Of a DNA stretch of 32,753 nt, positions 1 to 32,753 are shown one piece after another. Numbering within the stretch: the first letter of the stretch is position 1; each line of letters opens with the position of its first letter. The position numbers and the translations under genes were made by a program. The notes under the pieces are model-generated. The model saw only the letters and a list, made by a program, of their open reading frames with translations, ran no database searches and was not told the origin of the DNA. The DNA is from Scytonema sp. UIC 10036 (GTDB lineage Bacteria; Cyanobacteriota; Cyanobacteriia; Cyanobacteriales; Nostocaceae). The stretch is taken from positions 1 to 32,753 of the forward strand of contig NZ_WJFC01000148.1 in NCBI RefSeq assembly GCF_009725235.1, written 5' to 3'.

Positions 1-314
1 CTCCCCACCCCGCCCCCCGCCCCCGCCTAACTCATACTAACTCCGCCGTGACATTTCCCCCATTCTTTTATATAAACCAAAGGGAGAAATATCACACACC
101 GATGCATTAAATATAACTACTACTGAGACGAGCCTAAACCATAGAGACTTCTCGTGAGATTCGCAAAAACATCTGGTTAAATTCAATTAATTAACTAGTT
201 ATAACCACTTGACGCGACATTCTGTAACCAGTTATAGTATATGCATAACAGGTTGAGGTGAACCACGCCACGAAACACCCAACCAGCAACTAGTAAAAAT
301 AAGGAGAAAACCAG
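1..314. other. Gene-free left end with TAACCA-like repeats
   Basis: No gene is visible. The first 27 bases are almost pure C with a few other bases and give no sign of a hairpin telomere; the right-end palindrome sequence is not present here. From about 195 to 290 there are several related motifs, such as ATAACCA at 201, GTAACCAGTTAT at 224, ATAACAGG at 244 and CAACCAG near 280. They are of the same kind as the array at 1125-1470. The stretch ends with a clear ribosome binding site AAGGAG before the gene at 315. Confidence 0.5.
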
Positions 315-2590: not shown

Positions 2591-2613
2591 TTCTGGATCT
2601 GACGATCGTGATA

Positions 2614-2799
2614 CCGTGTAATACTTGGAAAAAGATTTGTCAGCTTAACGGTGTATCACACGGAACAAAGGAAGCAGATTATCCGTGTAATATATGGAGA
2701 GCGGAGAATGCACAAAAAAGATTTTAAGAGTACAGGCTCTTCGGTGTAATACATGGAAGAAGAGCGCTATTCAAATAGGACTTACGGTGTAATACACGG
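2614..2799 (+). repeat. Subterminal CCGTGTAATACACGG-like sites, left end of the element
   Basis: Fifteen-base sites of the form C(C/G)GTGTAATACA(C/T)GG lie at 2614, 2649, 2683, 2742 and 2785. The same family occurs at the right end at 5010, 5135, 5169, 5204, 5555, 5676, 5711 and 5746, and once inside the accessory gene at 4809. They are near-palindromic and concentrated at both ends of the element, so they are good candidates for transposase or accessory-protein binding sites. Confidence 0.75.
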
Positions 2800-2879
2800 T
2801 GGGGGCTGATGTTGAAATGGGACATTCAATTCCGTGTCTTATTGTCAAGGAGTGCTGATTTTATAGGGGGAAGACGTAA

Positions 2880-4586
2880 TTATGTAGGGCTTTGCACTTG
2901 TTCTAGCTGATAAAGGGACTCAGGCATTTTTATTAAGGAGAGAATTTGTTTTTGCAGATCGGACAGAGGCGTGATGAAGATGGTAGAATCAGGGAGAAAA
3001 TAGAGAGTTAAATTGCAAAAAGCCTTAAGCATTCGCTCCGCAGATGGGCGATTGGTTTTTCGCTTTGGATTGCCATCATAAAGACCAGCTAAAGATTGTT
3101 GAGTTTGCTCAAGAGCCAGCCGTACCACAAACTCCATTACTGTAAATACGCGCAAAGCTATGTTCAAAATGAACATTAAGCCAGTAATTCGGTCTTCGTT
3201 TTGGAAGTAAATGGGTAAGGCTGGCAAAGAACCTCTTTTAAAACGGTGAAACCCACGCTCCAAAAGCCATTCATCCCGGTAATACATTACAGCTTGTGGT
3301 AGGGTCAGTCGAGTGGTCGGGGCATTGGTGACATACAATCGCCATCCTGCCAAGGTTTCTGCTTCCTTAATCGCAGTATCAATCGGATGTATATGAAGTT
3401 GAAGACATATCTTAGTCACGCACTCAGTTGGAGAGTTTTTTGATGGTCGTCCCCGTCCGACATGGCGAGTTTGGTGAGTGATTTCTTCTGTAATTGTGGT
3501 TGAGAAAAAATCGTTGACACGATAGCGCGTGAGAATGTTTTCTACTTTCTGGGTGAGTTGAAAGCGATCCTCTCCTGGTTTGGCTGCTAATTTATCCAGA
3601 GCAGTTTGTGCATTGTTAATGCGTTGCTGTTGACCACGGATAATAGATGCTGCAAGGCTTTGGGAATAAACTACTAAGTAGCGTTCATGCCAACGTACCC
3701 ACTTGTTAGTTTCTTCGTTGAACCAAAACTTGCCTAACTCTACTTCAAAGCCTTTTCCCACAGCAGGTTCTTCTTCATCAAGTCGCGGTAAACGAATCTC
3801 CACAGTTTCTGCTGGCGGGGAGAGTACCCATTGCTTCAGATATTGGGGGTGTTGCCCACTCATGGGTACAGGAACGCAGTAAATCCCTCGGTTTGCTGCA
3901 ATGGTGGCGCGGGTTGCAATCGAGCCTGCTTTACAATCAGCGATGAAGACAAAATTTTTGTGTCCAATCACCTTTACCATTTGTTGCCAGGTAGGAAAAT
4001 ATAATGGATCATCAGCTCCATTCCCTTCTAGGGTGGCACTGACCAAAGGCATTCCCATTGGGTCAAGGGTTGCTAGTAATTGACGGTATTGCAGCAAGTC
4101 TGGGCGAAAATCTTTGGAGTACCCATGACGCAGTAGACTTTCTTCTGGCGATTCTCCCTGTTGATGATTCACACTAAAACTAGTTGTATCAGCTCGTGCC
4201 ACAACAGTCGGCAATTCGTAGGCACGAATTAGATGCCGTCCTAGCTTTACTTCTATTTCCAACCTGGCTTGTGACTGCAACCCTAACTCTTCGACTACCC
4301 TTGCTAATCGGTCATCACTGGCATCTTTTTCCCCTATCGACCACCCCGTACTTAACTCTAAAATCGTTCGATGTGTTTGCACCCAAGGTTCCACAGCAGA
4401 CAACCTATGGTCTGACTCGGTGATGATATATGTTAATAACAATACACTCAATTGTCCGTAGCTCAGTCCTTTGTGGTTTCCGTGGGGTTCCCTCAGTTTT
4501 TGGTCAATACATTTGGCTAGATCCATCTGTTTGAGCCATTCCACGATTAACGGAATATCGTCTATCCGCTCGGAACTTATTTCCAC
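2880..4586 (-). CDS. IS1634-family-like DDE transposase
   Basis: The 568-residue product catalyses cut-and-paste or copy-type movement of the element. The N-terminal part (about 1-110) resembles the DUF4277 domain of IS1634-type transposases. A DDE core is visible: Asp in ARADTTSF near residue 132, Asp in FIADCKAGS near residue 210, and the C-terminal YRDEWLLERGFHRFKRG, which corresponds to the Y-(2)-R-(3)-E-(6)-K-like signature. The start is GTG at 4586, with AGAGGAAA about 6 bases upstream. It lies 36 bp downstream of the accessory gene, so the two are probably cotranscribed. It looks intact. The family assignment comes from motif reading and total length, which fits IS1634 members. Confidence 0.85.
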   Translation of the reverse strand: MEISSERIDDIPLIVEWLKQMDLAKCIDQKLREPHGNHKGLSYGQLSVLLLTYIITESDHRLSAVEPWVQTHRTILELSTGWSIGEKDASDDRLARVVEELGLQSQARLEIEVKLGRHLIRAYELPTVVARADTTSFSVNHQQGESPEESLLRHGYSKDFRPDLLQYRQLLATLDPMGMPLVSATLEGNGADDPLYFPTWQQMVKVIGHKNFVFIADCKAGSIATRATIAANRGIYCVPVPMSGQHPQYLKQWVLSPPAETVEIRLPRLDEEEPAVGKGFEVELGKFWFNEETNKWVRWHERYLVVYSQSLAASIIRGQQQRINNAQTALDKLAAKPGEDRFQLTQKVENILTRYRVNDFFSTTITEEITHQTRHVGRGRPSKNSPTECVTKICLQLHIHPIDTAIKEAETLAGWRLYVTNAPTTRLTLPQAVMYYRDEWLLERGFHRFKRGSLPALPIYFQNEDRITGLMFILNIALRVFTVMEFVVRLALEQTQQSLAGLYDGNPKRKTNRPSAERMLKAFCNLTLYFLPDSTIFITPLSDLQKQILSLIKMPESLYQLEQVQSPT

Positions 4587-4994: not shown

Positions 4995-5009
4995 TACTCT
5001 ACTCTTCTC

Positions 5010-5760
5010 CCGTGTATTACACCGTAATTTTAACCCTTAATCGGTATCTTTCGGACGTAATATGAAGAATTACACCCAGGGCATATTTCTGCGCGATACG
5101 GCTTGAGCCGTTAAGCTTCGCTTATCGCCTCCTTCGATGTATTACACGGAAAGACCTGACCCCTCTTACCGTGTAATACACCGTTGGGCTGACAAACCCT
5201 TCCCCAAGTATTACACGGTATCACCACTATCAGATCCACAATCACGTTGAAACCTTACACAGTAAGGCATTAATTCCTCTCACCCTTTCAACCAGGAGCA
5301 AACGCACAGCAATAAAGTCTGACACTGAAACCCTACTAAAAAAGACACTGCTCCGCTGCTTTTGGGTAGAAAACCCTTTGTTAAAGGGCAATTCCGGTAA
5401 ATCTAGGTGATAACTTTATTGTCATTGGCATCCCCCTAAAAAAGGTGTGAGTTCAGTTCAGGGTAAAACTTTATTGTCAATTCAGGTTGTACAGCGCACG
5501 TAAAATCAAGGTTTCTGGGTAATACCACTCTTAGAACATTATTGTTTCTCTACACCGTGTATTACACCGAAAGTCAGTGCGATAAGCACCATGAGCGGCT
5601 TGCGCCGAAGCGATAAGCCGGGGGAGGCTTGCGCGATCGAGCGATCGCAGTCTTTTTTGTGAATTCTCTGTATTTCCATGTATTACACGGAACGTTTGAT
5701 TTCCCTCGTACCGCGTAATACACCGTTAAGCTGACAAATCTTTTTCCAAGTATTACACGG
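5010..5760. repeat. Subterminal CCGTGTAATACACGG-like sites, right end of the element
   Basis: Fifteen-base sites lie at 5010, 5135, 5169, 5204, 5555, 5676, 5711 and 5746, in both orientations. The outermost pair (5711 and 5746) mirrors the outermost left pair (2614 and 2649), with the same 35-bp spacing. This supports a role as end-recognition sites. Confidence 0.75.
5093..5128 (-). repeat. 36-bp palindromic interspersed repeat, copy 3
   Basis: It begins GCGATACGGCTTGAGCCGTT and ends AAGCTTCGCTTATCGC, the inverse orientation of the copies at 510 and 1048. It lies in the non-coding right part of the insertion element. Confidence 0.85.
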
Positions 5761-5850: not shown

Positions 5851-6400
5851 AACTGAGTGCGTGACTAAGATATGTCTTCAACTTCATATACATCCGATTG
5901 ATACTGCGATTAAGGAAGCAGAAACCTTGGCAGGATGGCGATTGTATGTCACCAATGCCCCGACCACTCGACTGACCCTACCACAAGCTGTAATGTATTA
6001 CCGGGATGAATGGCTTTTGGAGCGTGGGTTTCACCGTTTTAAAAGAGGTTCTTTGCCAGCCTTACCCATTTACTTCCAAAACGAAGACCGAATTACTGGC
6101 TTAATGTTCATTTTGAACATAGCTTTGCGCGTATTTACAGTAATGGAGTTTGTGGTACGGCTGGCTCTTGAGCAAACTCAACAATCTTTAGCTGGTCTTT
6201 ATGATGGCAATCCAAAGCGAAAAACCAATCGCCCATCTGCGGAGCGAATGCTTAAGGCTTTTTGCAATTTAACTCTCTATTTTCTCCCTGATTCTACCAT
6301 CTTCATCACGCCTCTGTCCGATCTGCAAAAACAAATTCTCTCCTTAATAAAAATGCCTGAGTCCCTTTATCAGCTAGAACAAGTGCAAAGCCCTACATAA
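5851..6400 (+). pseudogene. Transposase C-terminal fragment
   Basis: The frame encodes the last approximately 180 residues of the transposase at 2880-4586 with no visible difference, including the YRDEWLLERGFHRFKRG motif. The first in-frame start candidate (5861) lies just after the junction. It lacks the two catalytic aspartates, so it cannot be an active transposase. If translated, it might act as a dominant-negative fragment, but no promoter or ribosome binding site is seen. Confidence 0.85.
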
Positions 6401-6756
6401 TTACGTCTTCCCCCTATAAAATCAGCACTCCTTGACAATAAGACACGGAATTGAATGTCCCATTTCAACATCAGCCCCCACCGTGTATTACACCGTAAGT
6501 CCTATTTGAATAGCGCTCTTCTTCCATGTATTACACCGAAGAGCCTGTACTCTTAAAATCTTTTTTGTGCATTCTCCGCTCTCCATATATTACACGGATA
6601 ATCTGCTTCCTTTGTTCCGTGTGATACACCGTTAAGCTGACAAATCTTTTTCCAAGTATTACACGGTATCACGATCGTCAGATCCAGAATCACGTTAAAA
6701 CCTTACACACTAAGGTTTTAATTCGTCCCCCCCTCACAAAATGAGCGAACGTACAG
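5851..6756 (+). mobile_element. Inverted 906-bp partial copy of the insertion element
   Basis: This segment is the reverse complement of 2524-3429 over the same length of 906 bp. It keeps one complete end (the CGTACAG end at 6756) and is cut at 5851, immediately next to the right end of the full copy. It therefore contains the C-terminal third of a second transposase gene and the corresponding subterminal sites at about 6480, 6524, 6583, 6618 and 6652. The arrangement fits insertion of one copy into another, followed by adjacent deletion or inversion. Confidence 0.85.
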
Positions 6757-7555
6757 TCTTATCTCCAGTCTCAGATTTTTTGAACTTGACCCCAGTTTCG
6801 ATACTCCGATTAATCACGTCCTTGCTGGGGGCTTGCTTGATTAGTGCTTTAAGGTCGGAGTTAACAGTGATTTTTTCAATCAGGTATTCTGCACCAAAAT
6901 CCTTAACAACTGGCTCACCAACAAGTTCGGAGTTAAAGAAACGAGTGATGGACGTGTTGCCACCGCCAATGTCACAGATAGTTACCGCACCGTCTAAGTT
7001 TTGACTTTTGAGCGCGGCTATACCTTCTGGGTACACTGAATTAATCTTGATTTGTACCAATACGGGTACACCTGCTAACTCTACTTTGTGGGTACCTTCG
7101 TTCTTTCTAATTACTGGTTCGTGTCGCTTAACGTCGTTACAGGTCACGGTGACTTCAAAAGCCATCTCTGAATTAACTTGTGGCAAGTGAGCTAATGCAC
7201 CAAGAAAGTACTGTAACCACAAGGAAGATTTACCCGTGTAATCATCGACCAATCTAATGAGGTCACTGCTACCACTTCTTGCGGCTTGAGTCCCAACCAA
7301 CCAGCAAGTGTTTTTTAAATCTTCCCGAATGCCATCAATATATTTAACATGACCGGGAATCTTATCTGAAGTGTTGTTGAGACAGCGAGCATACCAGCTT
7401 GGTTCTCTCAGATAGTCGTAGCCTTCTACATATGCTTTAATCCAATGGTTTCCAAGGTCGATGACTGACCGGAAGTGTTTTTTGATTTTAGATGGTGTTT
7501 TTGAGGCGGTTTTTTTACGGGTACTTTTGGGTACATTAGCAGTTTTATCACTCAT
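6734..7555 (-). pseudogene. Actin-like plasmid segregation ATPase (ParM/StbA type), C-terminus cut off
   Basis: ParM-type proteins polymerise with ATP and push plasmid copies apart. The start is ATG 7555 with AAGGAG about 9 bases upstream. After a basic N-terminal tail of about 28 residues, the phosphate-1 motif SVIDLGNHWIKAYV appears at 30-43, and the phosphate-2 motif TICDIGGGNTSI appears at about 190-200. Native sequence ends at about residue 266, where the insertion-element end (6757) supplies the final residues VRSLIL and the stop. Family members are usually 320 residues or more, so the last subdomain, including part of the adenosine pocket, is probably lost. The small gene at 7656 is probably its operon partner. 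The product is most likely non-functional, in which case segregation must come from elsewhere. Confidence 0.7.
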
Positions 7556-13367: not shown

Positions 13368-14030
13368 GTGAAGATTGACGGACACGGTAAAGCAAAGGTT
13401 TTGTCTACCGAAGAAATCCAGAGGTTGTTTACTTCTGGCTTGCTTACCATCAGGGACAAAACTTTATGTGCTGTAATGCTTTATACTGCTTGTCGGGTCA
13501 AAGAATGCGTAACTTTGAGGGTCAAGGACGTGTACGATTCAAAAGGTCGAGTCAGACCAGAACTCATTATCCGCAAAGGCAACACCAAAGGTAAACTTGC
13601 TACCCGCACCATTCCCGTACTGGATGATTTGCGGCAACATCTAAAAGTTTACAAGCCATTACAGACTCTGGACGGTTATCTCTTCCCAGGTCGTTGGGGG
13701 AGAGGTCATATTCATGAGGATAGTGCTGCTTTTATTTTCCGAGAAGCGTGTAAGCGGGTAGATATTCTTGGGGCTTCTAGTCACAGCTGCCGTCGTACCG
13801 CGTTAACTCTAATGAGTAATGCTGGGATACCGTTACGAGTCATTCAGGAGGTTAGCGGACACAGGAACTTAGAGCAATTGCAAAAATATCTTGAGGTTGA
13901 AGAATCGCAGGTTCGGGGGGCTATTGCCGCTTTGTCGATGTTGACACCTGTGGATGAAGACAGCATCGGGAAATATTGTTATCCCGATGTATCCTCAATC
14001 CCCGACACTGAAACGTTTTTGAGCGATTGA
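13368..14030 (+). CDS. Minimal tyrosine recombinase (phage-integrase family)
   Basis: The 220-residue product has the complete catalytic set: Arg in box I (LYTACRVKECVTLRVKDV, near 42), the beta-hairpin Lys (RKGNTKGK, near 72), HxxR (SSHSCRRTALTLM, near 143), His in SGHRNLEQL (near 166), and the nucleophile Tyr in LQKYLEVEE (near 174). The N-terminal arm-binding domain is missing, so only the catalytic domain is encoded. The start is GTG 13368, one base after the previous stop. It could resolve plasmid multimers or act in site-specific integration. It is distinct from the telomere resolvase at 25190. No attachment site was identified. Confidence 0.85.
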   Translation: MKIDGHGKAKVLSTEEIQRLFTSGLLTIRDKTLCAVMLYTACRVKECVTLRVKDVYDSKGRVRPELIIRKGNTKGKLATRTIPVLDDLRQHLKVYKPLQTLDGYLFPGRWGRGHIHEDSAAFIFREACKRVDILGASSHSCRRTALTLMSNAGIPLRVIQEVSGHRNLEQLQKYLEVEESQVRGAIAALSMLTPVDEDSIGKYCYPDVSSIPDTETFLSD

Positions 14031-15360: not shown

Positions 15361-15502
15361 CGACATTTTACCAAAACTCGGTGCTTTAATCAAGCAAAAA
15401 CGCCTTACTGATTGTCTGCAATGTTTAGAGGCGTTTGGATACAGCAGTGAATCAGCCCTGAATCTACTAGCCTACCTGCAAGCAGAGGGGGTAGGGCAAT
15501 GA
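15335..15502 (+). CDS. 55-aa protein translationally coupled to the replication gene
   Basis: ATG 15335 begins a 55-codon frame (starting MIFLNFSTDDILPKLGALIK) whose stop overlaps the start of the replication gene (ATGA at 15499-15502). GGGAG lies upstream at 15323-15327, inside a hairpin. The predicted peptide looks like two or three helices. By position it resembles the short leader ORFs that control translation of plasmid replication proteins, and it may also act as a protein partner. The function is unknown. Confidence 0.6.
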   Translation: MIFLNFSTDDILPKLGALIKQKRLTDCLQCLEAFGYSSESALNLLAYLQAEGVGQ

Positions 15503-18500
15503 GTTATACCCCTAATCCTTCACATCTTCATGAATGGTTTGCCAGCGCAGTAGATGAAGATATCATTCGGCTAAACGTTAAATCTTTAGAAGGAAACTCC
15601 GCACTAGAACATCTGCTCTATGCTCTGCCCGAAAATGCTAGACGCAATGACAGAAGACTGCGAGATAAATATCTCAGGCAATATGACCACGTAACCAAGG
15701 GTGGTTGGTGGATTAGCGGACTCGATCCCCTAAACAACTGGGAACCAATGGAGTGGGGAAGGTTTAAACCAGATTTTGCCCGCATGGGATGGGACAAGGA
15801 AGCTCAAAAACCTACTGAGAAACCTGTAAAATATGAGTCACCCCCTAAGACCCCCAACCGCGTTACCTACTTGCGGGTCCCGTTGCATATCTGGGAGATG
15901 GTATCTAAGAGGTATGGAGTCCCCATGCCAGAACAAATTGTCACCACAGAAGCAGGGGAAGCGATCGGTTTTTGGGCTTGGGTGGTTTCTCATCCCGAAA
16001 TCCCGATTGTTCTGAGTGAGGGTGAGAAAAAAGCCGCGTCTTTATTATCACTGGGATTTGTGGCTGTAGGATTACCGGGGATATGGGGTGGTCGCATCGG
16101 TGAGCGTGAACTAGAGCGGATGCATCCTGATTTAATTCCTGTTGCCCAAACAGGACGGGAATTTATCATTTTATTTGACTACGAAACCAATCCCTCAACT
16201 AGAAAACAAGTTTACAAAGCTACTACGCGCACCGGATGGGCAATTACCCGTCAAGCAAGCCATTGCAAAGTCGCTTTACTCCCAGGTCAGGAAAAGGGGA
16301 TCGATGATTGGATTATCGCTTTGGGTAAAAAAGCTAACACATCTGTCACCGCGCTCATTGGTGATGCTAGAAAGCTTACCGAATATCAAGCAGAAATTCG
16401 CCTCAACAGGTCAAGAGGGCTGCATAAGTACAGACCTGATATCATGGTCAACACGCGCTTCCTCTCGGATGCGGTCACAAAACTACCTGACTCTGGGTTG
16501 ATATGTATTCAAAGTGACATGGGTACTGGGAAAACTGAACTCTTGTCACGTTGGCGGAAGGAACACCCAGAAGAGAGCTTTTTAAACAACGGTCACAGGG
16601 TAAACTTGCTGAGAAATCTTGCAGGCAGACTGGAGACTGTTATGTACAACGCAGTCAACGGCGGTAGCTTAGGGGAAACCAAAGCTCTCAGCATCACCAT
16701 TGATTCGCTGTATAAAATGGCAAATAATTTACAAGCCTACGGGTGTGTTTTTGTTGATGAAGCTTGTCAGTATCTCGCTCACCTGCTGAAGTCTAAAACC
16801 TGTCGCAATCATCGGGCAAGTATTCTAGAGGTTCTGGAAGCTGTAGTTTACCGAGCAAAACTCGTAGTTTTGGCGGATGCCCATCTAGACGACTTGACAA
16901 TAGACTTCTTCCGTGCTATGCGTCCCCAAGGAGAGTCACCTTTTATTATTCAGAATAACTGGAAGTCGGGAGGGCGAGAGGTTTTTTGGTACGAAGGTAC
17001 TAACAGCAGTGCTTTGATAGCACAAATACACGCCCAAGTACTGACCGGAAAGAAAGCGATAGTTGTTAGTGATTCTAAGCGCTTTATTAAAAAGCTTGAG
17101 CGCAGTTTTTTGATGCTGGGCAATGTTTTGCACAGCGACACCCAAGACGATACCCCAGAACCAGAGGCAGACCGTCAGTTACGAGTGTGGGCAATCCACA
17201 GTGAGAATTCTGGCAGCGAAGAAAACCAATTGTTCATACAAGAAATTAACACAGCTCTTAAGAGCATAGACGTGTTGCTAACCAGTCCTAGCTTGGGAAC
17301 GGGGGTTGACATTAGTGTTGATTATTTTGATATCATTTTCGGCGCATTCCATGCAGTTTCTCAATCAGCAAACGAGTGCGCCCAACAACTATGGAGGAAC
17401 AGAACTAACATCCCCATGCACGTTTGGGTGGCTGAACGTCCACCGTTTGGCTACAACGAAACCAACCCCAGACGTATTAAAGAACGATACTTACAAAAAA
17501 ATGAGATGACCGCGTTCCTCATTCGCATTGACCGCGAGACCGGTCGCAGAGGGGTTGAGAAGGATTGGGCGCTAGATATCTCTTGCCAGCTTGAGGCGCA
17601 ACGAAACTTATCCATCAATAATTTACGCCAAGATTTGCGATCGCTTCTTGATTTCATGGGAAATACCATTATTCCGATGGGAGATGGAGCTAATGAAGCA
17701 GCTAAGAATTTAATGAAGACCGCCTGTGAGATTCTTGACCGAGAACATTGTGAAGCGGTTGCCAATGCCAAAGATATCGACCGCAAAACATATGATGCCC
17801 GCCAAAAACAAGATTATCTCAAACCAGAGGAAAGTCTTGAATGCGAGAAGTTCCGAATCTTTGATAGCTACGGGATGCCTGTCACCCCAGAATTAGTAGA
17901 AAAAGATGATTCTGGGCGATTAATTCGTAAGTTAGTAAGTCTGGAAGCAATTTTACTGCCCCCAGAAGAAACAATTGTTGATGAACAGGGGAGAGAGTTC
18001 CAAACTCCACCGCAATTAGTTGCAGAACGCGACAAGCAGGAGCGAGAGCGCTTGTCAATTTGTACTGATTGGGGTAACTACTCTACCAGTTGGCAAATGC
18101 GTCACTCATTAGGACTGAGAGATGTTTTGCTCTCAATGATGCTCAAAGGTCAGGAGTTTACAGGCACCGAGGAAATTCTACTTAATTTACGAGAGCGATC
18201 TCATCAATTTGCCCCCCACATCAAGCAAATACTCGGCATAACAATTCCAGTTGAAAATGTGAACCCAATGTGGATTTTGGGAACTTACCTACAACAGTTA
18301 GGACTATCTACTGTTTCACGTCGAATCGGAGCCAGAGGACACCGAGTTCGCCAGTATACCCTTAACCCAGATGATTTAACTTTCGCCCAACAGGTTTTAG
18401 AATACCGCCAATTGCGGCGAGAGGAGAAAGAGCGACAGCGACAACTTGACAAAGAGACAGCAGAACGCCGAACTGCTGGAATGCTTGCACAGTACGGCAT

Positions 18501-18843
18501 TAACCCCGAATCTCCTCCCGTGTCCACACCCCCCCCATTTATAGGTGGAAAGTACTTTGAGGGGGGGTCTGGACACCAATCAACAGAGGCAGAAAACGAG
18601 CGCTCAAATCAGCCAAATGATGATAATACTGAGGATAGCCCTTTCACGGAACGAGCAAAAAAAGTGGCTCGGTTGGCAATGAACTCACTTCGATTTGGGG
18701 TCAAGGCAATCCAAGACCTTCTTCAGTGTTTGAGTGAGGATGAAAGGTTTGCAGTTATGTCTCTGTGGGAAGATGCCGATTCAACCCAATTTGCGCGATT
18801 TCTCGAACTAGCACCAAACTGGGTTGAATGGTGTATCTCTTAA
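15499..18843 (+). CDS. Plasmid replication protein, CyRepA1-like (DUF3854 primase/helicase)
   Basis: The 1114-residue product is the probable replication initiator. The N-terminal half has a Toprim/DUF3854-type segment: LSEGEKKAASLLSLGFVAVG (about 172-191), then FIILFDYETN (about 222-231) and GIDDWIIAL near 260. A helicase core follows, with Walker A QSDMGTGKTELL (K345, T346) and Walker B VFVDEACQYL (D420, E421), plus DAHLDDLTI and a later SPSLGTGVDI segment like helicase motif V. The C-terminal third is Glu/Arg-rich. The length and order match the CyRepA1 family found on cyanobacterial plasmids. The gene is coupled to the 55-aa ORF in front. The origin is not identified but is likely near this gene. 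Linear plasmids with resolvase telomeres normally replicate from an internal origin, which fits. Confidence 0.8.
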   Translation: MSYTPNPSHLHEWFASAVDEDIIRLNVKSLEGNSALEHLLYALPENARRNDRRLRDKYLRQYDHVTKGGWWISGLDPLNNWEPMEWGRFKPDFARMGWDKEAQKPTEKPVKYESPPKTPNRVTYLRVPLHIWEMVSKRYGVPMPEQIVTTEAGEAIGFWAWVVSHPEIPIVLSEGEKKAASLLSLGFVAVGLPGIWGGRIGERELERMHPDLIPVAQTGREFIILFDYETNPSTRKQVYKATTRTGWAITRQASHCKVALLPGQEKGIDDWIIALGKKANTSVTALIGDARKLTEYQAEIRLNRSRGLHKYRPDIMVNTRFLSDAVTKLPDSGLICIQSDMGTGKTELLSRWRKEHPEESFLNNGHRVNLLRNLAGRLETVMYNAVNGGSLGETKALSITIDSLYKMANNLQAYGCVFVDEACQYLAHLLKSKTCRNHRASILEVLEAVVYRAKLVVLADAHLDDLTIDFFRAMRPQGESPFIIQNNWKSGGREVFWYEGTNSSALIAQIHAQVLTGKKAIVVSDSKRFIKKLERSFLMLGNVLHSDTQDDTPEPEADRQLRVWAIHSENSGSEENQLFIQEINTALKSIDVLLTSPSLGTGVDISVDYFDIIFGAFHAVSQSANECAQQLWRNRTNIPMHVWVAERPPFGYNETNPRRIKERYLQKNEMTAFLIRIDRETGRRGVEKDWALDISCQLEAQRNLSINNLRQDLRSLLDFMGNTIIPMGDGANEAAKNLMKTACEILDREHCEAVANAKDIDRKTYDARQKQDYLKPEESLECEKFRIFDSYGMPVTPELVEKDDSGRLIRKLVSLEAILLPPEETIVDEQGREFQTPPQLVAERDKQERERLSICTDWGNYSTSWQMRHSLGLRDVLLSMMLKGQEFTGTEEILLNLRERSHQFAPHIKQILGITIPVENVNPMWILGTYLQQLGLSTVSRRIGARGHRVRQYTLNPDDLTFAQQVLEYRQLRREEKERQRQLDKETAERRTAGMLAQYGINPESPPVSTPPPFIGGKYFEGGSGHQSTEAENERSNQPNDDNTEDSPFTERAKKVARLAMNSLRFGVKAIQDLLQCLSEDERFAVMSLWEDADSTQFARFLELAPNWVEWCIS

Positions 18844-19341: not shown

Positions 19342-19926
19342 TCAAGAATTCTCTTCTTCAACCTCGCTCTCAATGAGTTGGATATCGTTGTGGTGTTGCT
19401 CATCTGACAGGAGCCATGTACCGTTCTCTTGATATAGATGCAAGCCATATTTTCTTAGTGTCGCGAGCGCAAAGTTCAAATCATGGTTCAACCCAGAAAT
19501 TTGAGCAAGTGCCTGCAACGCTCTAGATTTGTCATGCATTGATAAAGTGATATCCGTCTGAGTCACTTGAATTTCACGAATAGCTGCTTGAAGATTGTTA
19601 TCGTTGCTTCCCTCTCCAAAATTTTCTATCAAATTCGGAGAACGAGAAAAAGCAATTTTTTCAAATTCTTTCACTACACGTCGAGGTAGGTCTAATACCT
19701 GGCTGGACTCTTGAGCTTTTAGTTCCTGTAGTTTGGTTTGAATTTTTGTTAGTTTCAATAGTCTTGAACTTTCTTTTTCAGCTACTTTTCCTCGACCAAG
19801 GTATCCAGCCCTTATATACGCAAAAATTGGATTTTTATCAATCATGTATTCATGACAAAACGCTAATTGTTTCAGACTTAAGCTTTCTTCTAGACCTGAA
19901 GATTTTCTCAATGGAAGTTCGACCAT
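19342..19926 (-). CDS. Phage terminase small subunit-like protein
   Basis: The 194-residue product begins (about 15-72) with a segment that fits the Terminase_2 pattern: LSLKQLAFCHEYMIDKNPIF, then AYIRAGYL, SRLLKL and IQTKLQELK, that is, a helix, 'AxxRAGY', 'SRLL' and a helix-turn-helix. In phages this protein binds DNA and hands it to the large terminase. No large terminase or other capsid gene is visible in the window. It is therefore either a relic, a DNA-binding protein recruited to plasmid functions, or part of a phage-plasmid. The start ATG 19926 has AAGGG upstream. It lies 30 bases after the HTH gene at 19957 and probably shares its promoter. Confidence 0.6.
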   Translation of the reverse strand: MVELPLRKSSGLEESLSLKQLAFCHEYMIDKNPIFAYIRAGYLGRGKVAEKESSRLLKLTKIQTKLQELKAQESSQVLDLPRRVVKEFEKIAFSRSPNLIENFGEGSNDNNLQAAIREIQVTQTDITLSMHDKSRALQALAQISGLNHDLNFALATLRKYGLHLYQENGTWLLSDEQHHNDIQLIESEVEEENS

Positions 19927-19956: not shown

Positions 19957-20739
19957 TCAACATTGGTAACCGCGTGAGCGCAAAACTTTCACCGCTTGTT
20001 GGTAGACTTTGTAATCTTCTGAGTCATCCGAATCGCATTCTAAAGAGTTCAAGAAATAGTTTATATCAAAATCCTGACTTAGTGAGTCGGGAAGAGTTTG
20101 AGTGCGCCAAAAGTTCTCATAAATCTCATCATTGTACTTGCGGATTCTTTCTTTTGAAGCTGCTTGTTTTTGCCTTTGCTCTTCGTTCAGTCTCCACTGG
20201 GCGGACAATACGTCTCGTGACTTGACGATTGCAGATGATTTCTCAATATTTACGGTTTCTAGGTCAGCGCCACAAGTAAGAGCTACTTGAGCGATGATTG
20301 ACCTTCTGTCCTTGTCATCCAATCCCACCCATTGCCCAACTATTTGAGCCGCTTTTAGTCTGTCAGATGGTTTTATATCAGAATTTGTCAAACAATCTTC
20401 AACTGTAGCGAGCGCAATTTCAGCCAGATTCAGTAAACGAATTGCCATTCTGCTGCTTATAGTGAGGTCTAAAGTTTCACCAGGTTCAAGGTTTGCAATT
20501 CTTTCTAAAATAGGTAGAGGTGTCGTTAGCGACAATGCGGTGACAGTATTCGCCTGAAAGTCTTCACTCTCAGGGGTTTCACCCTTTCCAGTAATTATTA
20601 TGGGAGTTTGCTCAAACTCCTTAAACCAGCGTTGAACTGTTCGCCTTGAAACCTTGCAGCGTACAGCTATGGAGTCACTTGTTTCTTTTTGTTGGTAAAG
20701 CTTCCAGGCTAGTTCCTTAGCTTTTTTACTGTTTTTCAT
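19957..20739 (-). CDS. HTH protein preceding the terminase-like gene
   Basis: The 260-residue product is counted from ATG 20739 (MKNSKKAKELAWKLYQQKET); another in-frame start lies 27 bases upstream. Residues about 5-40 form a helix-turn-helix (SDSIAVRCKVSRRTVQRWFK) like those of Hin/Tc1-type and terminase-like DNA-binding domains. The remainder is helical with no known motif, and the segment LNLAEIALATVEDCLTNSDI, about 120-140, looks like a packed helical bundle. Eight TGTCG motifs, phased by helical turns, cover its upstream region. A decayed second copy of its first 40 codons lies at 21020-21115. Self-regulation through these motifs is likely. Confidence 0.6.
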   Translation of the reverse strand: MKNSKKAKELAWKLYQQKETSDSIAVRCKVSRRTVQRWFKEFEQTPIIITGKGETPESEDFQANTVTALSLTTPLPILERIANLEPGETLDLTISSRMAIRLLNLAEIALATVEDCLTNSDIKPSDRLKAAQIVGQWVGLDDKDRRSIIAQVALTCGADLETVNIEKSSAIVKSRDVLSAQWRLNEEQRQKQAASKERIRKYNDEIYENFWRTQTLPDSLSQDFDINYFLNSLECDSDDSEDYKVYQQAVKVLRSRGYQC

Positions 20740-20740
20740 T

Positions 20741-20868
20741 TGTCGCTTATTGTCGCTCTGACACAACTACTTACATAATATTGTCGTTTGTTGTCGTCAT
20801 CATGGCGTACAATGTCGCCCAAATGTCGTTAGGAATGTCGCTTCTCTGTCGCTTCCCCTGATGTCACT
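20741..20868. promoter_or_regulatory. Helically phased TGTCG(C/T) array
   Basis: TGTCGC or TGTCGT occurs at 20741, 20751, 20782, 20792, 20813, 20824, 20836 and 20847, with a weaker TGTCAC at 20862. The steps are 10, 31, 10, 21, 11, 12 and 11 bp, close to whole turns of DNA. The array begins directly upstream of the HTH gene start. Further copies lie at 21049, 21127, 21137 and 21160. A cooperative operator or a replication/partition site is the likely meaning. Confidence 0.65.
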
Positions 20869-22974: not shown

Positions 22975-25032
22975 ATGAGCTTATCTGGACGGCAGCGCAA
23001 GGAACTACAATCCGCTTTAGTTGATGCTTTCCCTACAAAATCATCATTAGAGCAAATGTTGTCGTTTGAATTGGATAAGAATCTGGAAGCAATTGCTGGG
23101 GAAGGAAGTTTACAAGAAATTATCTTCAGAACAATACAAACAGCACAAGCAGAGGGATGGATTAAAGAATTAATTCGTGGAGCACGAAATTCAAATCCGG
23201 GAAACCCAAAATTAGAAGCTATTACCCAAACACTTGGAAAGGAACCATCTTCTAGAAACCGCGTACAACAAGCACTGTTAAAGCAAGTCAGTACTGAAGT
23301 TATCTCACGATTAGAGCAGTCTTTACATAATCGGATTTATATTGTTCAAGATACAGACCAAAATCCAGAGCAGATTGAATTACCTTGGGCGAGTGAGGTA
23401 AAAGTAGGCTCAAAACCAAAAGTTCATTTAACGAATACGGAAATAACCACAATTTATGACCTACCTGATATTGATGGAAGATTATTAATTTTAGGTCAGC
23501 CTGGGGTTGGTAAAACTACGATGCTCCTTAAGTTAGCTGAGGAGTTAGTCAACCGTGCTAAAGATGATTCAACACATCCTATACCAGTGCTGTTTTCTTT
23601 ATCTTCTTGGAAGAATGACAATCAGAGTATCAAAGATTGGTTAGTTGACCAGCTAAAAGATAAATACGGGGTACGAAAAGATATCGGTAAAGGACTAGTA
23701 GAAAATCAAGAAATTATCCCGTTGCTAGATGGGTTGGATGAGCTAGCAGCAGAGCGTCAAGAAACGTGTGTTATCAAAATTAACGAGTTTCTTCATCCTA
23801 GCAATTGGAGTAATCCTGCAATCGTTTGTAGTCGAATAGAAGAGTATCAGCGATATCAAGCTTCGCTTCAACTAAATAACTCCCTAGAATTATGTCCGTT
23901 AACTTCTCAACAGGTTGAGCAATATTTACAAAATACAGAGAACTTAGAATTATGGAATAGTATTAGTCAAAATGAAGATTTAAAGCAATTAGCCCAAACA
24001 CCTCTTTTTTTAAATATTATTGTTATTTCTGCTCAAGAAATATCAGTACAGACTTGGAAGGAATTCTCATCTTCTGAGAATCGTTTGAGTTATCTATTTA
24101 ATGCTTATATTACGAGGACGCTAAAACGTCCATATAAAGAGAAACAGCCTAAACCAGAAAATACTAAACGCTGGTTAGGTTGGTTGGCACAGCGATTAAT
24201 TGAGGAAAATAAAACCGAGTTTTTGATTGAAAAAATGCAACTAAGTTGGTTGAAAAAAGGAAGTGAAGAAAAAAGAAATAGATTGATTGTCTTGCTGATT
24301 GTCGGGCTGATTGTCGGGCGGATTTACGAGATGATTGTCGGGCTGATTGTCGGGCTGTTTGTCGGGCTGATTTCCCGGCTGATTATCGAGTTTAATAATT
24401 TTAAAGAAATTAAAACTTATGAAACAATAGATTTGGCTTGGAATTTAAAAACTTTCTCAAAAATAGGTTCTAATCTGTTCTACGGGCTGTTTTACGGGCT
24501 GTTTTACGGGCTGATTAGCGGGCTGTTTTACGGGCTGATTTACGGGATGATTGGCAAGCTGATTTACGGGATAATTGTCGGGATGATTGGTGGGCTGATT
24601 TACGGGATGATTTACGAACTGAATGGTTTAAAAGGAGCAGAAGTAGAAAATAAGATTTTTCCGAACTATGGGATTAAGAAGAATATAAATTATATGTTCA
24701 TTTTTATTATTATTGTAACCCTTTTGATGCTACCTCTTGTTTATACGATATTCAGATTAAATGTGGAAAATAAAGATAATTTAATTAGATTGTGTTTAGC
24801 TTTCCCAACTTTATATGGAGTACTAGTTATTGGAGAACCTGTCATTTACCATTTCGTTTTACGCATAATTCTTTGGTCTAACGGCTCTATTCCTTGGAAC
24901 TATGCCAAGTTTCTTGACTACTGTACCAATCGCTTATTTTTACAAAGAGTCGGTGGGGGCTATCGTTTTATGCATGACCTACTACGCCAACATTTTGCCA
25001 ATTCCTATGCTCAAACCCAAAAACGGTCTTAA
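22975..25032 (+). CDS. EAD1-NACHT NTPase with transmembrane C-terminus (putative conflict/defence protein)
   Basis: The 685-residue product starts with an effector-associated domain 1 pattern (about 3-83: LSGRQRKELQSALVDAFPTK, LEQML, GSLQEIIFRTIQTAQAEGWI). A NACHT STAND NTPase follows, with Walker A LGQPGVGKTTMLLKL near 173-181, Walker B IIPLLDGLDELA near 245-256, and VCSRIEEYQRY near 284. The C-terminal part has two glycine-rich hydrophobic blocks (about 434-472 and 500-549) built from four-residue repeats G-L-(I/F)-(V/Y), then two more membrane segments and RFMHDLLRQHFANSY. EAD domains pair NTPases with effectors in cyanobacterial conflict systems, and NACHT proteins are known antiphage sensors. 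I infer that this one opens or disturbs the membrane when triggered. The effector pairing by EAD1 is not seen locally. Confidence 0.75.
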   Translation: MSLSGRQRKELQSALVDAFPTKSSLEQMLSFELDKNLEAIAGEGSLQEIIFRTIQTAQAEGWIKELIRGARNSNPGNPKLEAITQTLGKEPSSRNRVQQALLKQVSTEVISRLEQSLHNRIYIVQDTDQNPEQIELPWASEVKVGSKPKVHLTNTEITTIYDLPDIDGRLLILGQPGVGKTTMLLKLAEELVNRAKDDSTHPIPVLFSLSSWKNDNQSIKDWLVDQLKDKYGVRKDIGKGLVENQEIIPLLDGLDELAAERQETCVIKINEFLHPSNWSNPAIVCSRIEEYQRYQASLQLNNSLELCPLTSQQVEQYLQNTENLELWNSISQNEDLKQLAQTPLFLNIIVISAQEISVQTWKEFSSSENRLSYLFNAYITRTLKRPYKEKQPKPENTKRWLGWLAQRLIEENKTEFLIEKMQLSWLKKGSEEKRNRLIVLLIVGLIVGRIYEMIVGLIVGLFVGLISRLIIEFNNFKEIKTYETIDLAWNLKTFSKIGSNLFYGLFYGLFYGLISGLFYGLIYGMIGKLIYGIIVGMIGGLIYGMIYELNGLKGAEVENKIFPNYGIKKNINYMFIFIIIVTLLMLPLVYTIFRLNVENKDNLIRLCLAFPTLYGVLVIGEPVIYHFVLRIILWSNGSIPWNYAKFLDYCTNRLFLQRVGGGYRFMHDLLRQHFANSYAQTQKRS
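24280..24625 (+). repeat. 12-bp coding repeats in the NACHT gene
   Basis: Two blocks are built from tandem 12-bp units, GTCGGGCTGATT around 24298-24375 and TACGGGCTG(T/A)TT around 24480-24620. Each unit encodes the four residues (V/Y)-G-L-(I/F). The units are so similar at the DNA level, with the codons GGG CTG used again and again against an otherwise AT-rich gene, that slippage expansion of a membrane-spanning segment is likely. Confidence 0.75.
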
Positions 25033-25116: not shown

Positions 25117-25186
25117 TTATTTACATACCCTCTTGACAATAGATAATTCCTTGATTACATTAATAACACAGTTTATATGTAAATAA
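25117..25186 (+). promoter_or_regulatory. Promoter of the telomere resolvase gene with flanking inverted repeat
   Basis: A sigma70-type promoter fits: TTGACA at 25133-25138, 17-bp spacer, TACATT at 25156-25161. An 11-bp inverted repeat, TTATTTACATA at 25117-25127 and TATGTAAATAA at 25176-25186, brackets it and could be an operator. The -35 lies within ACCCTCTTGAC, which is shared with the next gene's promoter and resembles the reverse complement of the telomere array motif. Confidence 0.55.
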
Positions 25187-25189
25187 GGT

Positions 25190-26224
25190 ATGTCTAGACA
25201 ACTTAAGTCAACAGATGAATTAGAAAACACGTACATTAATGACCGAGTAGCATATTTACTACCTAAATTTGAAGCTTTAGCTCCATACAAGCTAAATCAG
25301 CGTAAGAAGGGAGTAGGGAACATACCGGGATGGGAAAGACTAGCAGCACAGGAAGCCCGATTACTCAAGCTCACTTACCCAGATGACAAGCCAGAGAATG
25401 AAAAAGAGTATGGGACTTGCTTAAGACAAATTACCGCACTCAAAAAAGCACTGAAAGACGCTGCTAAGACCGAACTGAAAGACCCTGCTTTGGTGAACCC
25501 AGTAATCACTATTGCTACTCACTTTGGTAACGCTGTTAGCTATTTGTTTAGTGAGTACAAAGAACGTCAAAATGTCCGATACAGAGAGAAAGTCACCTCA
25601 CGACGGCAAAAAGAAAACCGTATTCAGATCGACTTAACCAACTCTCTCCAGTTTGCCCATAACATACTTACTGAAGTGGTAGAGGGTAAAGAGCCGAACT
25701 GGATTGATGTGTCTTGTTCTATCGCACTGGCAACGGGTAGACGCATGGGAGAAGTACACTGCTCAGCTACGTTTGAACACTCTGATGAATATGAGATTGC
25801 TTTCAGAGGTCAGTTAAAGGGTAAAGACCGCAAGGTAAAGATAGGAGCTAAGAGCATTCCACTCAAAAAAGCTACTTTTTACATCCCTACACTACTGCCC
25901 GCTCACTTAGTCTGTGCTGGTTTAGATTACCTGGAAGGTAAAGGTAAACGCTTTTCAAAGGATGAAGACCCCGAACGTGTAAATCGTACATGGTCAAAAG
26001 TTCTCAACTTGGCGGTAAAAGATTGGGACATCTTCCCAGAACAAGACCGTACATATCATAAATTTCGTGCGGCATACTTGCGGGCTTGCATTGTGAATGA
26101 TTCATCAGTCGATCCATACGACTTTACAGACTATGCCAAGGAAATTTTAGGGGATGATGATGAATCGACCATTAACGCTTATAAGCGCTACGAAATTAAA
26201 CCTGGGACAATCACAAAAATTTAA
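25190..26224 (+). CDS. Telomere resolvase (protelomerase-like tyrosine recombinase)
   Basis: Telomere resolvases cut replicated palindromic telomeres and re-seal each strand to give covalently closed hairpin ends. The 344-residue product has the catalytic features: box I Arg in LATGRRMGEVHC (R184/R185), a basic beta-hairpin RGQLKGKDRKVKIG holding the Lys, HxxR in YHKFRAAYLRAC (H290, R293), and the nucleophile in TINAYKRYEIK (Y331 or Y334). The ATGRRxxE form and the YKRY-type end resemble TelN/TelK/TelA-type enzymes more than XerC/D integrases. It is shorter than the characterised ones (about 440-640 residues), with a compact N-terminal domain. The start is ATG 25190 with a weak AAGG. The palindrome at 32678-32753 is its natural substrate. 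The assignment is from motif pattern and the matching telomere, not a search. Confidence 0.8.
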   Translation: MSRQLKSTDELENTYINDRVAYLLPKFEALAPYKLNQRKKGVGNIPGWERLAAQEARLLKLTYPDDKPENEKEYGTCLRQITALKKALKDAAKTELKDPALVNPVITIATHFGNAVSYLFSEYKERQNVRYREKVTSRRQKENRIQIDLTNSLQFAHNILTEVVEGKEPNWIDVSCSIALATGRRMGEVHCSATFEHSDEYEIAFRGQLKGKDRKVKIGAKSIPLKKATFYIPTLLPAHLVCAGLDYLEGKGKRFSKDEDPERVNRTWSKVLNLAVKDWDIFPEQDRTYHKFRAAYLRACIVNDSSVDPYDFTDYAKEILGDDDESTINAYKRYEIKPGTITKI

Positions 26225-26316: not shown

Positions 26317-27528
26317 ATGTCTCAAGCAGCAATCGCAACAAAAATCGGGTCAGAGTTAGCCTCTAAGCTCCAAAATATTACTGATGAAAAAGTCATCAAA
26401 ACATCGACCATTGAAGCTTGGAAGCAATTAAAAGAAGCAATTACAAATCCCAGTACTTTCAGTTCTAGAGGTTTGTCCAATGCCCGTAAAGCAATTAAAG
26501 AAGTTTTCCCAGACAGCGAAACACCAAAACAGGGTTATTACCACACGACACAGGGTAAAGGACAAACACCACGTTACGAGCATCTAGCGCTTTGGTATCT
26601 CACTGCTAATACTGACCGATGGGAGATTACTGGGGATAAGGCTAGACAATCTTATTTTGAAAATCTCCCTAAATTAAGCTCACAGACTGAATCACAGCCA
26701 GAAACACAACCACAACCGGAAGCACAGCCAGAAACACAGACCTCTCCACAGCCAACACTTAAATTAGAAAATATGACTTTACAGCAATTAGAACTAGATA
26801 TTGAAACACATCAAATCGTTCAAGATGCCCTAAATCACTCTGGAATGAGCCTAGCTGACTTCGTTAAGCAAGCTTGTAAAGTGTATGCCCGAACTGTTAT
26901 AGGTAAAGCTCAACAAGCTACTAAATCGGAACTAGAATCCATCCCTACTGCTGAACTCTTGAATAATTCAAAGTTGAGAACATTACCGGGTAGGGCAGAA
27001 GAACTGGCTAAACGCGCTATGGTCGCCATCATGCATCACAACGATATGGCGACTGAAAAATCACAAAAGTGGTGTATTACTGCTACTGCTATCAACAAAC
27101 TCACTGGCTCAAAAATCCCGCTAATTAACAACGTTATGGAACAATACAAGCTCATGATTGATGACCATAACGCCAAACACGGACTCAATCCCTACGACAA
27201 CAGAGGACGGGCAACAAAGATTGAAGAAGATATTGATTTTGTAAATTTCTCTGAAACTTCTACACCAGTAGCAACCGCACCAGTAACAACTACGGTAGAA
27301 CCAACCAAAGTAGAACCTGTAAAACCAAAAACTACTAAACCATTACCTAAAGCTACACAAATCAAAGTAGTTCCTCTCGAAACCTCATTACTTGATATCC
27401 ATGAAATTCTAAAAGCTAACCCAGGTTCTAAGGTGCGGGTTAAAGATGGACGGAAAGCACTTACTTATGTCCTAATACCTGAAGGAATAAAAATTGAAGA
27501 AACTGGTGAGATTGAAAAACTTGCTTAA
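26317..27528 (+). CDS. Unknown three-part protein next to the telomere resolvase
   Basis: The 403-residue product is not recognised. Three parts are visible: an N-terminal helical domain (about 1-120) with ARKAIKEVFPDSETPKQGYY and YEHLALWYLTANTDRW; a glutamine/proline/glutamate linker (about 123-147, PETQPQPEAQPETQ); and a central helical domain (about 150-310) with MSLADFVKQACKVYARTVIG, LPGRAEELAKRAMVAIMHHN and YKLMIDDHNAKHGLNPYDNR. A second Pro/Thr/Lys linker leads to a short C-terminal domain (about 355-395, PGSKVRVKDGRKALTYVLIP). The linker-joined domains and the promoter element shared with the resolvase gene make it a candidate telomere-array binding or partition protein. This is inference from context only. 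Confidence 0.6.
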   Translation: MSQAAIATKIGSELASKLQNITDEKVIKTSTIEAWKQLKEAITNPSTFSSRGLSNARKAIKEVFPDSETPKQGYYHTTQGKGQTPRYEHLALWYLTANTDRWEITGDKARQSYFENLPKLSSQTESQPETQPQPEAQPETQTSPQPTLKLENMTLQQLELDIETHQIVQDALNHSGMSLADFVKQACKVYARTVIGKAQQATKSELESIPTAELLNNSKLRTLPGRAEELAKRAMVAIMHHNDMATEKSQKWCITATAINKLTGSKIPLINNVMEQYKLMIDDHNAKHGLNPYDNRGRATKIEEDIDFVNFSETSTPVATAPVTTTVEPTKVEPVKPKTTKPLPKATQIKVVPLETSLLDIHEILKANPGSKVRVKDGRKALTYVLIPEGIKIEETGEIEKLA

Positions 27529-32160: not shown

Positions 32161-32303
32161 GTGGACGCGGTAAGGTGGACTGGGAGTGGACGCGGTAGAC
32201 GGTCTTTGGGCATTGGGCATTGGGCATGGGGCTATCTATTGACTAGGTAGACAAGGGTAGTCATGGGATTAGGGATTGGGGATTGGGGAGAAGTGGACGC
32301 GGT
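32161..32303 (+). repeat. Three GTGGACGCGGT repeats with simple G-rich repeats between
   Basis: GTGGACGCGGT occurs at 32161, 32186 and 32293. Between them lie the tandem GGGCATT units (about 32208-32226) and GGGATTA/GGGGATT runs (about 32265-32290). The third copy is followed by the telomere array. The function is unknown. Confidence 0.6.
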
Positions 32304-32333
32304 TGACTTGGTGGAAACTGTGAATGCAGATAT

Positions 32334-32690
32334 CTCTATACTAGAGGGTTTAGTCCAGTTGTTCCGGTGGTCATGCAACTATGAATAGACTAGTGGGTTT
32401 AGCATGACAAACCAGGGTAGACTACGGCACTCATGCATAGACTAGTGGACAAGTCAACGAAAGTATGGCAGGACTAGAGGGTTACGCCAGATAGCCATAT
32501 ATAGACAAGAGGGTAAGCTTACGGATTTATGACTGTACCAGAGGGTTTATACACTTGTGTATGCATAGACTAGGCGGTTAGACCGGGCAAACATCAGTGT
32601 ACTAGAGGATATATCAAGGTATTAATAGGTAGACTAGAGGGTTAAGCAACGCAGAGATGCCCGATTGCAGATATCAGAGGGTTAGTACAG
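32334..32690 (+). repeat. Subtelomeric array of TAGACTAGAGGGTTTAG sites
   Basis: Eleven related sites approach the telomere, all in one orientation. The GGG of the motif lies at 32346, 32395, 32415, 32447, 32479, 32511, 32543, 32575 (as CGG), 32607 (as GGA), 32639 and 32679. Eight consecutive sites (32415-32639) are exactly 32 bp apart. The dinucleotide AT lies 14 bases before the GGG in most copies. The last site lies inside the palindrome arm. Sequence between the motifs is not conserved, so this is not a tandem duplication kept by chance and not a CRISPR array. It looks like a set of protein-binding sites on one face of the DNA. Confidence 0.85.
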
Positions 32691-32753
32691 TCCTTGCTAG
32701 CATTCCTTGTTCTCATGAGAACAAGGAATGCTAGCAAGGACTGTACTAACCCT
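32678..32753. repeat. Perfect 76-bp palindrome: hairpin telomere read-through
   Basis: The last 76 bases are a perfect palindrome centred between 32715 and 32716 (CTCATGAG). The arm reads AGGGTTAGTACAGTCC, then TTGCTAGCATTCCTTG, then TTCTCA. Such a structure at the end of a sequence is expected when both strands of a hairpin end are read as one molecule; the true tip is then at 32715/32716. It matches the form of telomere resolvase target sites. The palindrome runs to the last base, so its full extent is unknown. Confidence 0.8.

Follow-up and report, generated by a model that had tools for sequence, protein, structure and literature searches.

Does the right end of this cyanobacterial contig form a hairpin telomere, and is the enzyme that makes it encoded on the same DNA? 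Hairpin telomeres are the simplest solution to the end-replication problem, and to our knowledge only few such systems have been studied. The stretch analysed here, called the window in the following, is one entire contig of Scytonema sp. UIC 10036 (NZ_WJFC01000148.1; 32,753 nucleotides). The original prediction had paired a perfect palindrome at its end with a telomere-resolvase-like gene and had placed the tip of the hairpin at 32715/32716. The palindrome is confirmed: its two 38-nt arms show 100% complementarity with a spacer of zero and extend to the very end of the window; when the window was shuffled 20 times with dinucleotides preserved, the longest perfect palindrome without spacer had arms of 7-10 nt. 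The position of the tip is likewise correct, with the central hexamer TCATGA at 32713-32718. A perfect palindromic target, corresponding to a replicated telomere, and a resolvase gene approximately 6 kb inboard of it are found on the same replicon. We conclude that the window very probably ends in a hairpin telomere made by the resolvase it encodes (Table 1).

The outer half of the palindrome, 32716-32753, is best read as a read-around copy made by the assembler and not as separate outboard DNA, because the length of the fold-back differs among assemblies of relatives and because 76 nt equals k-1 for k=77. The arms of 38 nt in the window and of 63 nt in a contig with SPAdes-style naming would then be half of k-1 for k=77 and k=127, respectively. 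At the left end of the window (1-30) no telomere was found. Here the contig is broken off: the window does not represent a complete linear molecule, and we infer its linearity.

The resolvase matches the Pfam family PF16684 (ResT-TelK_cat) over the full profile (1-181) with 134 bits at a cut-off of 27 and an E-value of 5.7e-39. A match to PF00589 was not found at E≤0.1, nor one to NCBIfam, Xer models included, at E≤0.01; a separate Xer-like open reading frame (ORF) is located at 13368-14030. The profile search against the protelomerase family that had been suggested as a check thus came out in favour of the predicted enzyme, and the predicted fold agrees, matching TelA, TelK and ResT well above other tyrosine recombinases. 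R184/R185, K210, H290, R293 and Y331 are invariant in 58 aligned proteins. Y331 is aligned with the nucleophile tyrosine of TelK. The second histidine of the tyrosine recombinase set, present in TelK, is replaced by D322 in all 58 proteins; it is not treated here as family-defining for telomere resolvases. Compared with TelA, the protelomerase of Agrobacterium tumefaciens (4e0z, 4dwp), the window enzyme is 19% identical in the structural alignment, lacks the TelA N-terminal region and has D322. The TelK structure 2v6e is matched with an E-value of 1.2e-9, the match being confined to chain residues 229-450 of a solved chain of 558 amino acids, versus 344 in the window enzyme. The N15 and phiKO2 records (TelN and TelK) were matched by tblastn, with a best identity to any phage record below 36%, and for ResT of Borrelia (8vs5) the comparison covers the catalytic domain.

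A protein search returned 262 relatives of the resolvase at E≤0.001, of which 120 were listed. We distinguished 38 resolvase loci (L018, L033 and L037 were outside the contig-end reading; L035 is a second copy on the L019 contig) and compared 35 from species genomes, mainly Nostocales plus Symploca and Phormidium. When the core TTCCTTGYTCTC was searched in 25 relative genomes (~192 Mb), it was found as a palindromic pair in 16 cases, all of them at most 400 bp from a contig end and 14 on a resolvase-carrying contig. The common tip is CATTCCTTGTTCTC(TAGA/ATGA)GAACAAGGAATG. Its palindrome terminates 13 of the 35 resolvase contigs, each of which folds onto its own subtelomere, and this recurrence of the tip at the ends of resolvase-bearing contigs supports the hairpin reading. 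In addition, the right end of pNsp_f coincides with the tip and its left end lies one base into the proximal box; the tip of pANACY.06 is internal, and at the ends of 20 contigs no tip was seen. Three of these 20 close in perfect terminal inverted repeats (95, 141 and 711 bp), as would result from a contig break ahead of the tip.

Both ends are telomeric in six contigs: UHCC 0204 C58 (20,076 bp), Richelia C59 (18,151 bp), FACHB-110 C54 (46,277 bp), Symploca C450 (29,717 bp; the left end halts just past the core), Nodularia C209 (89,750 bp) and pNsp_f (56,077 bp; recorded linear). The two ends of the Richelia and FACHB-110 contigs are identical inverted repeats over the counted stretch, yet each contig contributes two rows. 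Beyond the tip, the 13 palindromic contigs contain their own subtelomere in reverse over 14 to 390 nt and then stop exactly or within 9 nt; a fold-back of 13 nt is present in two further contigs without resolvase. Counted inboard from the end of the core, the two ends of UHCC 0204 C58 cease to match after 29 nt, yet each folds onto itself. Reads turning round a hairpin, or passing through a replicated palindrome, would give this pattern.

The same pattern bears on the other explanations of the palindrome. It could mark where two copies meet head to head in a stable circular dimer, or be a long inverted repeat in a circular plasmid, with the resolvase homologue acting on it as an ordinary recombinase. 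Short-read assembly would yield the same fold-back contig in that case, pANACY.06 (L001) and UHCC 0870 (L003) are recorded as circular, and the resolvase has D322 in place of the histidine. However, the six contigs with two telomeric ends have only fold-back beyond them, the linear record of pNsp_f stops at the tip on one side and just before it on the other, the structures closest to the resolvase are hairpin-forming enzymes, and the inverted flanks around the tip of pANACY.06 are those expected from forced circularisation; we therefore consider this explanation improbable. A pure assembly or library artefact (an inverted chimera) would account for a palindrome flush with the contig end and of k-mer-like length (76 nt), but is very hard to reconcile with the same centre in separate assemblies of different genera, the same arm at the end of the linear pNsp_f and the resolvase gene on these replicons. 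Equally implausible is a linear plasmid with protein-capped, Streptomyces-like ends and incidental terminal palindromes: some relatives do have perfect terminal inverted repeats (29 to 8722 bp), but the contigs turn at one exact centre, the replicon encodes a telomere resolvase and the Pfam matches of ten scanned window ORFs include no terminal-protein family.

Three of the relatives deserve a separate description. pANACY.06 (L001, NC_019775; 21550-22823 and 1-480) is filed as circular, with flanks of the internal tip that are inverted copies by eye; the record gives the impression of a linear plasmid that was forced into a circle. In Nostoc indistinguendum CM1-VF10 (L057, JAHHHS010000138) a second, degenerate telomere core is present 498 nt from the left contig end; an iteron array of its own begins 45 nt behind this core, and the whole looks like a relic telomere buried by new end addition. 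The 89.75-kb Nodularia contig REBL01000078 (L019, L035, L059, L060) carries a telomere and a resolvase at each end and has perfect terminal inverted repeats of 8,722 bp; read by eye from the sequence, a gene in its middle is adenylation-domain-like.

We then compared the architecture of the ends. In 18 ends each arm is built from a pair of directly adjoining 13-nt boxes, the distal one being ATTCCTTGGTTAC in some relatives. TCATGA forms the centre in the window, in Richelia and in Phormidium LEGE 05292, and most other ends have TCTAGA; in a section of PMC3558466, TCATGA is given as the native hexamer of Agrobacterium TelA. Behind the boxes lie iterons, whose 13-nt copies start at 32337, 32386, 32470, 32502, 32534, 32566, 32598, 32630 and 32670 in the window; the six from 32470 to 32630 are spaced by exactly 32 nt, and the last one begins 45 nt ahead of the end of the proximal box. 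Of 22 tip-bearing ends, 15 have the first copy of TATAC[AT]AGAGGGT (≤3 mismatches) at a distance of exactly 45 nt from the box end, a count made with iteron and box patterns derived from the same ends; XA010 and NMS7, which have no tip, were excluded from the 22. The iteron and motif counts for CM1-VF10 were taken from its inboard relic, and a recheck at the true tip was identical (first iteron at 45, no GCAGAYAT). Iterons mostly follow each other at 31-32 nt in Nostocales and at 43 nt in Symploca, about three and four helical turns. Phase coherence peaks near 10.7-11 bp and at 10.5 bp exceeds that of uniform spacings with p 0.03 (40 distinct values only); stronger phase figures are inflated because of tandem copying. 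The longer pattern TAGACTAGAGGGTTTA (≤4 mismatches) has 11 matches on both strands of the window, eight of them in 32201-32680, where 200 shuffles of the stretch gave a mean of 0.09 and a maximum of 2.

A further motif connects these ends with a second class of cyanobacterial telomeres. The window resolvase belongs to a compact class (class 1), and in a second, fused class the resolvases are larger (616-621 amino acids). The single 8-mer frequent in the ends of both classes is GCAGACAT (last 450 nt; null probability 0.001-0.016, depending on the threshold). In outward orientation, GCAGA[CT]AT is present in 11 of 19 compact-class ends (14 had been used in the 8-mer comparison) versus 2.4% of interior windows, and in 11 of 11 fused-class ends versus 0.6%. 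It was absent from the Symploca, Richelia, CM1-VF10, LEGE 05292 and Nodularia ends.

The region upstream of the resolvase gene resembles the telomere. TTGACA-N16-18-TA[CT][ACT][AT]T was found upstream of 19 of 35 resolvases and of none of 353 other ORFs from the same loci; it is accompanied by a box of telomere type that covers the -10 and by an inverted arm at the start codon. A matrix made from 18 telomere arms gave a median of 6.0 bits upstream of the 35 resolvases versus -0.7 for the 353 controls (p 2.5e-14, overstated because resolvase promoters are homologous), and at least 8 bits were reached in 12 of 35 regions versus 5 of 353 controls. Autorepression of the resolvase via a telomere-like operator would be the natural reading of these similarities.

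The gene directly after the resolvase encodes a protein of 403 amino acids, termed the partner here. A homologue adjoins the resolvase in 36 of 38 class-1 loci (it is missing at L014 and L034), downstream in Nostocales and divergently oriented in Symploca and Phormidium LEGE 05292. With tblastn the partner matched 10 of 72,556 plasmid records, and all ten carry a telomere resolvase. Three are compact-class plasmids; in four the match is inside a larger resolvase gene (AP025026, AP018302, AP018300, AP018305); and three are linear plasmids of unicellular cyanobacteria, in which the partner adjoins a third-class resolvase (334-339 amino acids; PF16684, 191-195 bits). The linkage was checked in the direction from partner to resolvase; of the 229 resolvase-matching plasmid records most are enterobacterial, and seven are from Leptolyngbya. 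When profiles were compared, the C-terminus of the partner matched that of 25 large resolvases (probability 97.1, E 6.5e-11), which confirmed that the partner domain is fused to these enzymes; the other 11 pairings of the partner score at most 1.2. The class-2 resolvases of N6, C052 and pNsp_d did not turn up in the plasmid search with the partner, and their link to it rests on the profile comparison.

The partner travels with cyanobacterial resolvases and, judging from the comparison with relatives, may coat the DNA beside the tip. Class 1 and the fused class have the GCAGAYAT motif and the partner domain in common, but differ in the tip and in most of the enzyme, and we therefore propose that the partner domain binds the subtelomere. 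We tentatively suggest, as quite possible, that the partner, adjoining or fused to the resolvase, binds arrays whose first site is fixed at 45 nt behind the tip and whose further sites follow at approximately whole helical turns. It might then be a telomere cap that recruits the resolvase, shares control of its synthesis via the telomere-like operator, and protects or segregates the ends. It might instead serve in partition or copy control, or be antitoxin-like, and have no more in common with the resolvase than an operon, an explanation that we regard as conceivable though somewhat doubtful and that would affect the role of the partner, not the hairpin. There is a weak TacA1 antitoxin-like match (E 0.04), and the partner outside its C-terminal domain gave no convincing profile match, its N-terminal and middle parts none to the resolvases compared; yet the linkage spans three resolvase classes, any gene order and a fusion, and the subtelomeric GCAGAYAT is common to the compact and fused classes. 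On L002 (42748-42942; pNsp_f 48847-49041) a small ORF just after the partner gene is overlapped by an 82-amino-acid stretch that is 91.5% identical to the C-terminal domain of class-2 resolvases.

Compared with the TelA system, the window system has two 13-nt boxes per arm and a partner gene, and is located on a plasmid and not on a chromosome. Among cyanobacteria, covalently closed hairpins with the end AAATTAACRGAC have been inferred for the linear plasmids pNPM8-10 of Nostoc sp. N6 in a part of PMC5987646. The N6 resolvases are large (621 amino acids on pNPM10, 495 as annotated on pNPM9). They share PF16684, the subtelomeric GCAGAYAT and the partner C-terminal domain with the window system, but the domain is fused to the resolvase and the tip is TCYGTTAATTT/AAATTAACRGA. 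This tip was read on large-resolvase plasmids of Nostoc and Calothrix NIES-22; the records of Fischerella and Calothrix PCC 7716 did not show it. The linear plasmids of Stanieria, Gloeothece and Chondrocystis resemble the window in their compact resolvase, here of the third class with 334-339 amino acids, and the separate partner gene adjoining it; the enzymes are 24-26% identical to that of the window. Stanieria and Gloeothece also have terminal iterons as the window does; the differences are the iteron size of 21-22 nt and, in Gloeothece, an end at CTCGCGAG. Iterons of the class-1 type TATACAAG, at 22-nt spacing, are clear in Gloeothece only.

Some further records carry resolvases of this kind. 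The linear record of pC052_H (L069, NZ_CP040280) reads through a class-2 hairpin around 38103 and 14179, as a palindrome with 444-nt arms and mirrored resolvase genes. AP018305 and AP018302 (L072, L073), Fischerella plasmids filed as circular, each have a resolvase gene and perfect terminal inverted repeats of 1,491 and 2,828 bp; they are probably linear, with yet another tip. P0183, a class-2 resolvase, is encoded on a chromosome-sized Nostoc N6 record of 8,214,648 bp, perhaps as an integrated plasmid or a host-encoded copy.

Taken together, the window would represent much of a linear plasmid of Nostocales, closed covalently by a hairpin at each end. By analogy with N15, Borrelia and Agrobacterium, replication would start at an internal CyRepA1 origin, and forks running round both tips would yield a circular dimer, joined head to head, that contains each tip as a full palindrome. 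As its family membership suggests, the enzyme would bind both boxes of each arm as a dimer, cut 6 bp apart around TCATGA via Y331 and refold each side into a hairpin. It may also bind the box-like sites over its own promoter and thereby limit its own synthesis, and the partner would bind the phased subtelomeric array and help to assemble, regulate or protect the end.

The original prediction had expected a cyanobacterial plasmid with this system to widen the range of hairpin-ended replicons; hairpin plasmids of cyanobacteria are not new, as the N6 plasmids show. The main text of PMC5987646 contains neither "telomer" nor "resolvase"; a section of PMC3558466 names cyanobacteria, without reference, among hairpin bearers; and passages of PMC4379921 and PMC8987985 do not describe cyanobacterial resolvases. 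Such proteins are already labelled protelomerase or telomere resolvase in public records. Telomere and enzyme are therefore of a known kind, and the partner, the fusion and the shared motif would be the new part. Among the papers listed by literature searches on cyanobacterial resolvases and linear plasmids, with subscription journals mostly outside their scope, no title or abstract start dealt with the tip, the iterons or the partner; nor did these searches show the box and iteron architecture, the telomere-like operator, the partner gene, the fusion or the shared subtelomeric motif. What emerges is a large cyanobacterial family whose ends are known, whose tip is conserved and in which a partner is linked to the resolvase by adjacency and fusion. 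Whether an accessory end-binding protein is needed at bacterial hairpin ends, and whether resolvases control their own dose, thereby becomes testable. The family further suggests linearity for some plasmids filed as circular, and could be a source of new pairs of hairpin-forming enzymes and sites.

Table 1. Features of the window that relate to the telomere, the resolvase and plasmid replication.
Feature	Position	Strand	Basis or remark
C-rich low-complexity contig break, without telomere	1..30	.	sequence
CyRepA1-family plasmid replication protein, presumed internal-origin initiator	15499..18843	+	NF042913, 362 bits, cut-off 200
Resolvase promoter/operator, predicted	25127..25189	+	sequence resemblance
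Iteron-like ACCCTCTTG	25127-25135		
Promoter elements TTGACA; TACATT	25133-25138; 25156-25161	+	
Telomere-box-like AATTCCTTGATTAC	25145-25158		over -10
Inverted arm GTAAATAAGGT	25179-25189		at start codon
Telomere resolvase, 344 amino acids; predicted nucleophile Y331, HxxR at H290/R293, D322	25190..26224	+	profile, alignment, predicted fold
Partner protein, 403 amino acids, gene directly after resolvase	26317..27528	+	C-terminal domain homologous to C-terminus of 616-621-amino-acid cyanobacterial resolvases
Subtelomeric iterons, TAGACTAGAGGGT type	32337..32682	+	pattern matches
GCAGATAT, subtelomeric motif common with second class of cyanobacterial telomeres	32667..32674	+	further copy 32326-32333
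Perfect 38+38 palindrome, predicted hairpin telomere (replicated form)	32678..32753	.	self-complementarity, relatives, shuffles
Distal box AGTCCTTGCTAGC (relatives also ATTCCTTGGTTAC)	32689..32701	+	abuts proximal box
Tip-proximal box ATTCCTTGTTCTC	32702..32714	+	near-invariant in 18 compared ends

Among eight scanned window ORFs, the one at 19342-19926 is terminase-small-subunit-like (phrog_51, 3.8e-17) and two others have weaker such matches; portal, capsid and tail families had no match in these eight. The ORF next to 19342-19926, at 19957-20766, has a weaker packaging match. A phage-plasmid ancestry of the window plasmid is possible, and one has also been raised for the N6 plasmids in a part of PMC5987646. 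A gene for an EAD1-NACHT STAND NTPase (22975-25032), with 12- and 36-bp tandem repeats at 24284-24616, adjoins the resolvase and is defence-like. In the left part of the window a 907-bp perfect inverted repeat (2523-3429 and 5851-6757) contains part of the transposase-like ORF 2880-4586, copied inverted as ORF 5861-6400; its edge enters the ParM-like ORF 6734-7555, which may be cut short. Palindromic elements of the CGGTGTAATACACGG type, similar to miniature inverted-repeat transposable elements, are repeated at 2733-2801, 5002-5575 and 6476-6499.
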